Positions 54,152 through 58,999 of a DNA stretch of 64,000 bases are shown here, piece by piece (the first letter of the stretch is position 1; each line of letters opens with the position of its first letter). Origin of the DNA: Crocinitomicaceae bacterium (GTDB taxonomy: Bacteria; Bacteroidota; Bacteroidia; Flavobacteriales_D; Sanyastnellaceae); contig NZRP01000048.1 in NCBI GenBank assembly GCA_002693775.1, forward strand, positions 1 through 64,000, written 5' to 3'. The translations under genes and the position numbers were made by a program. The notes beneath the pieces were generated by a model. The model saw nothing but the letters and a program-made list of their open reading frames with translations. It was not told where the DNA came from and did not search any database.

Positions 54152-56176
54152 TTACTTCTTAACTGTAAACTCAGTCCTTCTATTGATTGCTCTGCCCTCA
54201 GCTGTCGAATTATCTGACTTAGGTCTCTGCTGGCCAAATCCTTTAGCATGTATCCTTTCAGAATCAACTCCCTTAGCAATTAAATAGTCAGCTACCACTC
54301 GTGCTCTTCTATTACTCAAGTCCAAATTCTTCTCAGCAGGCCCCACATCATCAGTGTGTCCTTCTATATCTACATCAAACCTTGGGTTATCAATAAGGTA
54401 TTCAGCGAACGCAACTAATACAATCTTTGCAGCTGAACTCATTTCGGTTGAATTGGTTGCAAACTGAACATCCCGTAATTCAAATGCGCTCTCATCAGAA
54501 TCTTTGTGAGCTCTCAGTTTAATCTCAGGTTGTGGGTCTCCTGTTGGAACTTCACCGGCCTGGTGAACTACCATAGCTTCAAAAGCTACATTTTTTCCCT
54601 CTACTTTTAAAAGAACATCATCAGCTATTGAAGTGTTGATAATAGCAGCGAATGAACCATCATCTCTATTTAGCTCAATTTCCTTAGCTTCCTTGCTCTT
54701 TACATAGTTGAGTGTAATTCTGACATTCTCATCCGGTGGAGTGGGATCTACTACTCCGTGAATCACTTTTACTGCATCTGGTCTTAATTCCTCAGGTAAA
54801 GGAAACTTCATAATATCAAGGCCTTTAGTTCCACTTCTTCTACTTGCGAAATACGCTTCATTTCCAGAAGCAGAAACAACAAGCCCATGTTCGTCCCCGC
54901 TTGTATTTAACGGCGTCCCCATGTTGATAGGACGACTCCAGTTGCCACTTGTGTCGCGTCTAGTAACATACAAATCGTACCCTCCGCCACTTGGTTTTCT
55001 ATTACTTGAAAAATATAGTGTCTTTCCATCAGGGTGTAAAAAAGGTGCCTTCTCTCCAGCGTCTGTAGAAATAGGATGAGGAAGCATCTCAGCTTCACCC
55101 CAATTACCTAAATCATCCTTTCTACTCACATAAATATCCATAGTGGGATTGCCATTAGAGTCTGCAGTAGAGGTAGCTCTAGCTGATGCAAAAAACAATT
55201 CCATTCCATCAGAGCTTAGTGCGGGTTGCGATTCCCACCCAAGCACAGTATTAATCTCAGGCCCAAGTAGTTCCAGGTCTTCCCAATAATAGAAAAAATC
55301 ACCCTTCTCATCTTTTCCGTCTACATTGTAAGTCGTGTAAAACAAGTCAATGTTCTGCTTATTTTTGGGGTGTGGATTTGTTGCTGCAATTATTAAGATT
55401 CTGTTGTCTATCGATAAGCTAACTCCTCCGTAATTATCTCCTTCATTAAAAGGGTATTCTAAGCTAACTCCTTCATCGAATGGGATATTTGAACCGCTTC
55501 TTTTAGCCCAAACAAGTTCTTCAACCCTCTTGCTTATAACATCTCCTCGTGCTTTAATTCTTTTAGCTCTTGTGAAAAATAATATACTGCCGTCAGGCGA
55601 TAATGCAGGGAGGTACTCATCATTCGTAAGAGATGTTAGCGGGAGTGGAGCGGGATTGTATTTGCCCTTATTTGCATAAAACTCCAGCTCAAATTGTAGC
55701 TGGGGAATTAATGATTCTACCTCGTCTCTTTTTCTACTGATGCTAGGTTTAACATCAGTCTTTGTCTTAGTCAGAAAGATGCTGAATTGGTCAAAAGCCT
55801 CTTGTATTTCTGCTTCCATATATGCAAGTGCGCCTAGCCTGTAGTACGCTTCAGCATTGTGGTCTGCGCATAATTCCATCCATTTATTGGTTGCTTGTCT
55901 ACACTCAGTTATGTGTTCAGTGTTCTTTTTAGAAAGTCTAAATAATTGCTTTGAAAGCTCGCTATAAGCAGAGCTGTAATCCTCTTGTATTTCTACAGCT
56001 TCTCTGAGGTATTTAACTCTGTCTTCAGTGGTGATTTTCTTCCTTGATTCGGTAGATTTTTCGAAAAGTTTAAGTGCCTTTGAGCTTAAATCTTGGGGTT
56101 GGGGGCAAGGGGTTTGTGCTGATAGCTGTAGGCTATTCAGCGCTAAAAGAAAGAAAACTCCCCATGACTTCATCAC
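54152..56176 (-). CDS. PorE-like envelope protein: TPR, PD40 propeller, carboxypeptidase-like and OmpA domains
   Basis: 674 residues with a signal peptide (to about LQLSAQ). An N-terminal TPR region (about 25-150) is followed by a PD40/WD40-like propeller (about 180-460) with repeated LSPDGSILFFTRA, LSSDGMELFFASARA and HPDGKTLYFSSNRK. A short carboxypeptidase-regulatory-like domain comes next (about 465-540) and an OmpA peptidoglycan-binding domain (about 560-674: IEGHTDDVGPAEKNLDLSNR). This order matches PorE, the peptidoglycan-linked protein of the type IX secretion system. No T9SS core gene is adjacent, so PorE itself is not proven. It overlaps the symporter gene by 4 bp. Confidence 0.85.
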   Translation of the reverse strand: MMKSWGVFFLLALNSLQLSAQTPCPQPQDLSSKALKLFEKSTESRKKITTEDRVKYLREAVEIQEDYSSAYSELSKQLFRLSKKNTEHITECRQATNKWMELCADHNAEAYYRLGALAYMEAEIQEAFDQFSIFLTKTKTDVKPSISRKRDEVESLIPQLQFELEFYANKGKYNPAPLPLTSLTNDEYLPALSPDGSILFFTRAKRIKARGDVISKRVEELVWAKRSGSNIPFDEGVSLEYPFNEGDNYGGVSLSIDNRILIIAATNPHPKNKQNIDLFYTTYNVDGKDEKGDFFYYWEDLELLGPEINTVLGWESQPALSSDGMELFFASARATSTADSNGNPTMDIYVSRKDDLGNWGEAEMLPHPISTDAGEKAPFLHPDGKTLYFSSNRKPSGGGYDLYVTRRDTSGNWSRPINMGTPLNTSGDEHGLVVSASGNEAYFASRRSGTKGLDIMKFPLPEELRPDAVKVIHGVVDPTPPDENVRITLNYVKSKEAKEIELNRDDGSFAAIINTSIADDVLLKVEGKNVAFEAMVVHQAGEVPTGDPQPEIKLRAHKDSDESAFELRDVQFATNSTEMSSAAKIVLVAFAEYLIDNPRFDVDIEGHTDDVGPAEKNLDLSNRRARVVADYLIAKGVDSERIHAKGFGQQRPKSDNSTAEGRAINRRTEFTVKK

Positions 56177-57879
56177 TCCTCTAATTCTCCTTCGCTAGCT
56201 GCTACTAAAGTGCTAACAGCACCATCTCCTGTAACATTAACAACTGTCCTAAACATATCTAGAATTCTATCAACAGGAATAATGAGTGCAATCCAAGCCT
56301 CGTTAAGTCCCACACTTTCAAGAACCATGACCATTAAGACAAGGCCCGCACTAGGGATAGCTGCAGCTCCAATGCTTGCAAGACTAGCAGTAGCAACAAT
56401 TATAAGCTGTTGAGTGAAAGTTAAATCTACCATGTGCAACTGTGCCATTGCTACAACGGCAACTGCTTGGTAGAGGCTAGTTCCATCCATGTTTACTGTT
56501 GCTCCAATTGGAAGCACAAAGCTTGTTGTTCTCTCTGAAACTCCAATTTTATTCTCCACACAGTCCATAGTTACCGGAAGCGTTGCAACTGATGAAGAGG
56601 TTGATAATGCAGTTATTTGAGCATTCTTCATTCCATTCATAAACTTCATGTACGTCATGCTCTTTACTAGCCTTGAAACAAGAAGTGGGTAAATGATAAA
56701 GATTAAAATCAATAATCCCAGGAGCACTGCACCAGAATAATGAAGAAGGAAAATAAACAAATCTTTGAGTTTATTAGAACAAGCAAATTTTATAAGTTCA
56801 TCTCCTTTTTCCACCGTTAACAATGATTCAACATAAACTTTCTCAATTGTCGCTGAAACAGGAGATTTTATAACGTATTCTGTTTTTGCAACTTCTAAAA
56901 TAATCATAGGATCACCCATACTTACGGTGTCTCCAGACTCTACAAGAATGTTTTGTACTTTGCCTTGATTTGGTGTGGTAATTGGATCAGGACATGAATC
57001 GCCTGCAACATCTACAACTTGTCCCGCCATTAATGCAAAAACAAAGAATGGCATAGCTTTCATGATGACCTTGATCATATTTACAAAGACATCATTGAGG
57101 CCGTCAATCAAATTATAAACTGCAGTAAATTTTTCACGAGGTAGCTTCAAAAGTATTATTCCAAAAAAGATTCCAAAGAAAATTATCTGTAACATCTCTG
57201 CGCTAGTAAGTGCTTTGAATATGTTTGATGGAAATACGTCTACTAAAGGCTGGAGAGGCCCTTCTTCTTTAGTCTTTGCGGCTTGGTCTAGTATTTTTTC
57301 CCCTTTTCTTTTATCAACGAGCTTGGACTTTTCCTCATGTGTTAAGGTTCCCTCTTTTTCTTTTTCTTCTAATTGAGTTTCTTTTTCTTTCTTGCCTTTG
57401 ATTTTCTCTACTATCGTTGCGTTAGCTGGATCGCAAGAGTAGCATAGGTTGTCGAGGTCTTTAACTTCCTTTCCATATTTGTTAGCCTCTGTCTTCCAGA
57501 GTTCGTAATCTATTCGATATTCTAACCTTACATCTTCAGATGGTTGTTTTCCAGGGTTCCATACATTTACTATCAGTAACCCCAGTGATACAGCGCAAAC
57601 TGTAGTGAGTAAATACATTCCTAATGTCTTCCAGCCCAACTTTCCTAGTTTGGTTATATCGCCCAAGCTAGCTACTCCAACAATAATTGAGAATAGAACA
57701 AGTGGTACGGCAATTAGTTTAAGAAGATTGATGAAGATTTTACCAAAAGGATTTATCCAATCAGTCACAAAATCCTGAAACCCAAATATTACAGCTGCTG
57801 TCGCAAATAATGCTCCAGCTACCAGTCCAATAATTACCTGCCAATGCAGAGCTAGTCTGTTTTTCTTTTCTGATGACAT
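56173..57879 (-). CDS. SDF (dicarboxylate/amino acid:cation) symporter with an inserted biotinyl/lipoyl-like domain
   Basis: 568 residues against about 420 for bacterial GltP-type symporters. The core is intact: TM1-3 (about 10-108), TM4 (about 225-247), TM5 (about 262-292), TM6 (about 375-402), HP1 with STSSS (426-430), NMDGT (463-467) and the TM8 motif with D537, D541, R544 and N548. Two insertions stand out. One, 111-210, is highly charged (KGKKEKETQLEEKEKEG) with C146 and C149. The other, about 294-368, has a biotinyl/lipoyl-like core (IILEVAKTEYVIKSP) with K332 at the modifiable position, flanked by C296 and C367. By SDF topology both face outward. Substrate is unknown. Confidence 0.85.
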   Translation of the reverse strand: MSSEKKNRLALHWQVIIGLVAGALFATAAVIFGFQDFVTDWINPFGKIFINLLKLIAVPLVLFSIIVGVASLGDITKLGKLGWKTLGMYLLTTVCAVSLGLLIVNVWNPGKQPSEDVRLEYRIDYELWKTEANKYGKEVKDLDNLCYSCDPANATIVEKIKGKKEKETQLEEKEKEGTLTHEEKSKLVDKRKGEKILDQAAKTKEEGPLQPLVDVFPSNIFKALTSAEMLQIIFFGIFFGIILLKLPREKFTAVYNLIDGLNDVFVNMIKVIMKAMPFFVFALMAGQVVDVAGDSCPDPITTPNQGKVQNILVESGDTVSMGDPMIILEVAKTEYVIKSPVSATIEKVYVESLLTVEKGDELIKFACSNKLKDLFIFLLHYSGAVLLGLLILIFIIYPLLVSRLVKSMTYMKFMNGMKNAQITALSTSSSVATLPVTMDCVENKIGVSERTTSFVLPIGATVNMDGTSLYQAVAVVAMAQLHMVDLTFTQQLIIVATASLASIGAAAIPSAGLVLMVMVLESVGLNEAWIALIIPVDRILDMFRTVVNVTGDGAVSTLVAASEGELEE

Positions 57880-57881
57880 CT

Positions 57882-58976
57882 TTAAAGTTTTGCGGTTTTA
57901 TTCCTCAGATGGTGATCAGCTAGTACCATAGCAACCATTGCTTCTACAATTGGTACTGCTCTTGGAAGAACACAAGGGTCGTGCCTTCCAACACCATCTA
58001 GTATAATGCTGTTCCCATCTAAGTCAACTGAGGTTTGGGATTTCATGATTGTAGAAGTGGGTTTAAAAGCAACTCTAATTACGATGTCCTCGCCGTTGGA
58101 GATGCCACCTTGAATTCCTCCACTTCTATTTGTTTCTGTCTTTATTTCTCCGCCAACTGTGTGAAAGTTGTCGTTGTGCTCTGAACCTTTTTGAAGAGTT
58201 CCACTAAGTCCAGATCCAATCTCAATTGCTTTAGCAGCTGGAATGCTCATTAAAGCGCCTGCAAGATCAGAATTAAGCTTATCGAATACTGGTTCTCCTA
58301 ACCCAACTTCAACATTTCTTGCAACTACGACAATTGCTCCTCCTACTGAATCGCCCTCTTCTTTTATGTTGTTTATTCTTTGCTCCATCCTGTTTGAAAC
58401 CTCAGGGATGGGGCATCTTACGATGCTTGCGTCTACTTCGCTTCTTGAGTAAAACTTAGGAGCTGATGGGATTGAAATATCGTGAACACGCTCAACATAT
58501 GCGCTGATTTCTGTAGAAGAGGTAGACTTGATTAATTCCTTGCAAAAAGCTCCTCCTACTACCCTTGATGCTGTTTCTCTAGCAGATGCTCTTCCGCCTC
58601 CTCTGTGATCTCTAATTCCGTATTTGCTAGAATATGTGTAATCAGCATGCGATGGCCTGTAAGTGTCCTCAAGATGAGTGTAGTCGCTACTTTTTTTATC
58701 GCTGTTGGCAATTTGGAATCCTATTGGAGTTCCTAAAGTGATAGTCTCTCCGTTTTTTTCAATCAATCCAGAAAGAAATTTCACGTTATCGCTTTCTTTT
58801 CTAGGCGTTGTAATTGAGGAAGATCCGGGTCGACGTCTTGAGAGATCCTCTTGAATACGCTCTAAATCAACGACTAAGCCTGCTGGGAGTCCGTCGATTA
58901 TCCCTCCAATTGAATCGCCATGCGACTCGCCAAAAGTCATTAATTTAAAGTGCTTACCAAATGAGTTGCCTGCCAT
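57882..58976 (-). CDS. aroC: Chorismate synthase
   Basis: 364 residues from the ATG at 58976 ([20 protein letters not shown]); an upstream TTG in frame is rejected. It forms chorismate from EPSP using reduced FMN. Signatures are [47 protein letters not shown], and near the C-terminus [16 protein letters not shown] and [13 protein letters not shown]. It is divergent from hutI over 26 bp that contain a palindrome. It is 2 bp from the symporter gene downstream, so the two are probably cotranscribed. Confidence 0.96.
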
Positions 58977-58979
58977 AAC

Positions 58980-58999
58980 CTGCAAGGTATAACTTGCAG
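58980..58999. promoter_or_regulatory. Perfect 7-bp inverted repeat in the aroC/hutI divergent promoter
   Basis: CTGCAAG at 58980-58986 and CTTGCAG at 58993-58999 are exact inverted copies around a GTATAA spacer. They fill most of the 26-bp region between the aroC and hutI starts, so a dimeric repressor bound here would block both promoters. An RNA hairpin is a less likely alternative. Confidence 0.5.

Follow-up and report, generated by a model that had tools for sequence, protein, structure and literature searches.

The SDF symporter encoded on the minus strand at 56173-57879 of the window (the whole stretch of 64,000 nucleotides analysed here, from a Crocinitomicaceae bacterium) carries a biotinyl-type domain in the loop between its transmembrane helices TM5 and TM6. 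We propose that this domain is an exapted, unmodified module seated in the hinge loop of the transporter, perhaps closed by a disulfide, that alters the elevator movement or offers a contact surface. We give this account as a whole a probability of about 0.6; any specific effect of the insert on the elevator is a guess.

The open reading frame translates into a 568-residue protein of the DAACS/SLC1 type. The SDF profile PF00375 spans its whole core (E 5.4e-110, 368.5 bits), and the protein aligns with GltPh, GltTk and an ancestral aspartate transporter. From solved SDF transporters we placed TM5, part of the scaffold domain, at about residues 265-289 (57013-57087, minus strand) and TM6, part of the transport domain, at about residues 374-400 (56680-56760, minus strand), both with approximate boundaries. 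The substrate- and ion-site motifs of HP1, TM7 and TM8 are intact: STSSS, NMDGT and the set D541/R544/T545/N548/D552. Residues S428-S430, N463-T467, D541, R544, T545, N548 and D552 are invariant across the homologue alignment, and they are also aligned to solved transporters. As all of these motifs are kept, we take the protein to be an active acidic amino acid or dicarboxylate transporter, whose uptake would be coupled to Na+ or H+. It shares the transporter core, the HP1/TM7/HP2/TM8 motifs and the order of transmembrane helices with GltPh, GltTk, GltP, DctA and the EAATs. The TM3-TM4 loop (57244-57558, residues about 108-212) counts 105 residues where most homologues have about 80, an excess of about 25; it is highly charged and contains a CYSC motif, and a protein from a sister genus, L007, has the same loop length and cysteines.

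The SDF/DAACS/SLC1 homologues that we examined have an ECL3, the link between TM5 and TM6, of only a few residues, whereas the window symporter has a 75-residue domain there. Its TM5-TM6 loop counts 79 residues, against 7 in all 63 aligned homologues, which come from Bacteroidota. The alignment and the junction DNA delimit the inserted segment to residues 295-369 (56773-56997, minus strand), standing where relatives have three residues (DLG in L007), for a net gain of 72 amino acids; the reading frame is open across both junctions. Within the segment, the biotinyl-type domain proper covers residues 300-366 (56782-56982, minus strand), as judged from Pfam, from a BCCP of the same genome and from the 1.3S subunit of transcarboxylase. 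The sequence-only reading had described residues 303-365 (56785-56973, minus strand) as a "biotinyl/lipoyl" domain inserted between TM5 and TM6. The frame, coordinates and residues are as it gave them; the comparisons with NCBIfam, PDB and the homologues now narrow the type to biotinyl and widen the insert to 295-369.

The Pfam profile PF00364 (Biotin_lipoyl) matches residues 298-364 with an E-value of 5.4e-11 and 42.6 bits, well above its cut-off of 22.1. The best NCBIfam matches of the insert are models of BCCP, pyruvate carboxylase and oxaloacetate decarboxylase; lipoyl and membrane-fusion models match the insert alone more weakly than those of biotin carriers. Among the sequences of solved structure in PDB, the 1.3S biotin carrier of transcarboxylase comes closest, with a gap-free alignment of 66 residues. 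These matches together indicate a true domain and no chance resemblance. Its best profiles are those of biotin carriers and its motif reads AKT, not of the DKA type, so that the domain is, judging by its sequence, biotinyl rather than lipoyl. The insert also bears the pseudo-two-fold repeat that a barrel-sandwich should show, with 10 of 29 positions identical, a value reached by none of 20,000 shuffles (mean 2.0). We dropped the idea that it is unusually self-symmetric, since such a count is typical for BCCPs (mean 9.05 identical). The structure models were too poor to speak for or against the fold: AlphaFold, run on the full protein (with a 12-row alignment) and on the insert alone, gave a pLDDT of 23-41 in the insert region, and the membrane part was also poor, with a mean of 53. 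A PDB fold search with this low-confidence full model returned only SDF transporters among the matches listed.

The conserved residues that the insert has lost fall in two motifs. A set of 35 BCCPs shows conservation of 97% or more at 16 of the aligned positions; the insert keeps ten of them (P303, G306, G316, V319, L328, E329, K332, E334, E357 and K358) and loses six (M304, P305, A330, M331, M333 and N335), each of which belongs either to the PMPG turn or to the AMKMEN hairpin that accepts biotin. The turn, with its methionine and proline invariant in the 35 BCCPs, has become PNQG (residues 303-306; 56962-56973, minus strand). The hairpin, E-A-M-K-M-E-N in BCCPs, reads EVAKTEY (residues 329-335; 56875-56895, minus strand), AMKMEN being replaced by VAKTEY, while proline, glycine, lysine and glutamates stay. 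K332 (56884-56886) does align with the acceptor lysine of the 35 BCCPs, as had been proposed from the sequence, within a motif that is otherwise lost: of the functional pattern, with (A/V)MKM changed to VAKT and PMPG to PNQG, the lysine alone is kept. E. coli BirA fails to biotinylate a BCCP whose motif reads AMKS (PMC3048393), although some carriers use other motifs, such as ALKV in Aquifex (PMC3048393). The lost motif and the external position of the loop argue for an unmodified structural module, in which K332 would bear neither biotin nor lipoate.

Could K332 nevertheless carry a cofactor? BirA in the cytoplasm, or else a lipoate ligase, would then act before export, and the cofactor would matter outside the membrane. 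The lysine is there, the genome encodes a BirA-type ligase, and E. coli can export BCCP domains that have already received biotin (PMC3418276). Yet the AMKMEN motif is without both methionines, the alanine and the asparagine, and PMPG without MP; even an AMKS motif is not accepted by BirA of E. coli (PMC3048393). Membrane insertion is, moreover, normally co-translational, and we know of no carboxylase partner outside the cytoplasm. We regard continued modification as very improbable.

The descent of the insert from a BCCP is secure as far as sequence comparison goes. In a search of 395 genomes of the phylum, its best relative was a 161-residue BCCP that the same genome encodes on a different contig (58.2 bits), with the next-best match in other genomes of the sample at 44.5 bits at most; the two sequences are 54% identical over 76 residues. 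A longer query brought the BCCPs of two other genomes of the genus close (58.6 and 56.8 bits, against 60 bits for that of the same genome). A phylogeny of 60 domains places the insert within the clade of the genus's BCCPs (support 88/87), at the end of a long branch (1.8 changes per site). AU tests leave other placements open because there are so few alignment columns, with p 0.39 for a position just outside the genus BCCP clade and p 0.30 for a quite different one. A donor from the same genus is likely. At the left junction, 11 bases, GCAGGCGATTC (56996-57006; in frame, AGDS), are identical to the BCCP gene of the same genome. They may hint at the mode of insertion, or the identity may be a coincidence, as AGD is native to the symporter.

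Between the insert and this BCCP, we estimated a dN of 0.36 and a dS of about 1.6, the latter nearly saturated, which makes the selection estimate rough. Even if most replacements and half of the silent change had fallen on the insert's branch, the ratio would be near 0.4. As dN is well below dS, the protein sequence of the insert appears to be under selection. It has evidently been kept for long as a protein domain, freed from the demands of carboxylation and of recognition by the ligase.

This bears directly on the main rival to our account, namely that the insert is a nearly neutral passenger: a self-folding domain without a role in a tolerant surface loop, leaving transport unharmed. A single genome carries the insert and its acceptor residues have drifted, both as a passenger would have it; as is generally known of biotinyl domains, their adjoining ends would also let one sit in a loop with little strain. 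Against it, the rate of replacement is well under the synonymous one, and the frame is open and the core kept despite saturated silent sites; two new cysteines, besides, flank the insert. Selection for mere foldability would be expected to leave the same pattern. On balance, we consider the passenger rather unlikely.

The insert-bearing symporter is known from one genome. A query comprising the insert and both its flanks found no second carrier at any rank from the genus (14 genomes) through the family (114) and order (399) to the class (395); these sets overlap, and those of the order, class and phylum are samples. A junction query had no match in plasmids. SDF homologues sharing the insertion, which the sequence-only reading had suggested looking for, did not turn up in the searched genomes, and all 63 aligned proteins have the 7-residue loop. 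The insert alone, searched against the 395 genomes of the phylum, matched open frames whose length was in most cases that of a BCCP and in a few that of a pyruvate carboxylase; no SDF protein was recognised in the part of these matches that was opened. An open frame of 457 residues (L116), which looked like a possible second fusion, turned out to be a BCCP behind an open frame. Neither the BCCP nor the symporter had a match in scans of viral contigs, and in open-access papers we found no description of such an SDF-biotinyl fusion. Genome G012 (85% complete), the nearest by BCCP, was a candidate second carrier; neither aroC, nor the symporter, nor a close ompA was found in its assembly. In G008 and G010, the symporter genes are of the genus type and interrupted by contig ends.

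The symporter itself has a different history from its neighbours. Without the insert, it groups with the sister genus and not with its own (100/100), and placement in its own genus is rejected by the AU test (p 1.5e-14). The two flanking genes (54152-56176 and 57882-58985), aroC and an OmpA-like gene (ompA), are nearest to their own genus, in which the order aroC-symporter-ompA is identical. The simplest reading is that the symporter was replaced in place by a copy from a sister-genus relative, which then received a BCCP domain of the type native to the host; alternatively, differential loss of old symporter copies could lead to the same grouping. In the sister-genus genome (L007/G061; L007 2913-3991; L164, L165), the aroC frame is split into two overlapping pieces, likely a frameshift or a sequencing error.

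An error of assembly or binning that fused two genes would also explain an insertion unseen elsewhere, in a genome of 63 contigs and in a symporter whose type differs from that of the genus. However, the insert and the genome's own BCCP share just 54% identity, with saturated silent divergence, and consequently a misjoin of the sequences examined cannot yield it. The frame is open over both junctions, and both neighbouring genes, aroC and ompA, match the type of the genus. We find an artefact hardly credible.

In SLC1 structures, the scaffold consists of TM1-2 and TM4-5, and the transport domain of TM3, TM6-8 and the hairpins HP1 and HP2 (PMC6800002; PMC7329351). ECL3 is extracellular in the SLC1 family and joins the scaffold to the transport domain (PMC6800002), agreeing with the earlier assignment of the TM5-TM6 loop to the outside of the cytoplasm. 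It reshapes during the transport cycle of SLC1A5 (PMC6800002); with the elevator movement, a short helix of ECL3 merges into TM6 in the inward state (PMC6800002; PMC7329351). By homology, the window symporter should share this topology, with the insert on the extracytoplasmic side. Its TM6-HP1 segment is rich in positive charge, as expected on the cytoplasmic side.

Two cysteines flank the insert and are specific to it, as the alignment bears out. Cys296 (56992-56994, minus strand), at the N-terminal base, is leucine or isoleucine in the nearest homologues, and cysteine is not among the commonest residues of the column; Cys367 (56779-56781, minus strand), at the C-terminal base, lies within the insertion and is hence absent from all 63 homologues. 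Both are candidate disulfide partners, though a C296-C367 bond is a guess from the two cysteines. In a biotinyl domain the two termini meet on the side away from the acceptor hairpin, so the insert would most naturally be pictured with a disulfide closing its base and the hairpin directed outward.

In our preferred account, this gene codes for an elevator-type, cation-coupled symporter whose substrates are acidic amino acids or dicarboxylates. The sequence shows that ECL3 received an in-frame copy of the biotinyl domain from the C-terminus of a carboxylase BCCP, and that this domain lost the AMKM and PMPG motifs while retaining the signature of the fold. We infer that it adopts a barrel-sandwich fold outside the inner membrane, with its two ends kept close, perhaps by C296-C367, and the former biotin hairpin away from the membrane. 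Transport being kept, such a rigid module would alter the hinge between the moving and fixed domains, offer a periplasmic contact surface, or both. A stronger version makes the carrier domain a working part of the elevator, which, stapled by the disulfide in the hinge, sets the rate or gating or couples transport to a periplasmic partner or the redox state; this we think rather unlikely.

A rigid extracytoplasmic module, as in membrane-fusion proteins, was also the earlier suggestion. It remains the best fit, but the likeness to those proteins extends to the fold alone, the ancestry being that of BCCP. The barrel-sandwich domains of HlyD and CusB have the fold predicted for the insert and are used unmodified outside the cytoplasm, as we propose for the insert, which differs from them in its ancestry, in its weak profile matches, and in having neither hairpin nor adaptor architecture; HlyD_D23 scores 12.6 bits (20.1 for the insert alone) against a cut-off of 30. 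The insert might still bind a periplasmic partner in their manner, docking the symporter to another envelope complex. The weak matches to HlyD_D23, Biotin_lipoyl_2 and RND_mfp would suit this, as would Tyr335, Tyr349 and Leu353/354, which are new with respect to BCCP and presumably exposed. However, such matches follow from the shared fold and no candidate partner gene was identified, which makes docking of this kind improbable.

With the biotin carriers of acyl-CoA and pyruvate carboxylases and the 1.3S transcarboxylase subunit, the insert shares ancestry, the position of the lysine and an ungapped alignment to 1.3S; unlike them, it is without AMKM and PMPG and stands within a membrane transporter, extracytoplasmic by homology. 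Biotin-acceptor domains engineered into lactose permease, or used as topology reporters in MalF, indicate that a carrier domain in a transporter loop can be tolerated. Those are made in the laboratory and biotinylated when cytoplasmic, whereas the insert in the window is natural and has lost its acceptor motif.

The locus thus offers a natural experiment in domain insertion: relatives that lack the insert, its likely donor and the resulting protein are all legible in sequence. A carrier domain from the cytoplasm appears to have moved to a transporter's hinge on the extracytoplasmic side, having lost its modification motif but kept the signature of its fold. If the symporter is active, ECL3 of the SLC1 type accepts a whole domain and would be a site for engineered switches or labels, and the protein would provide a direct test of the constraints that the hinge places on the elevator cycle.
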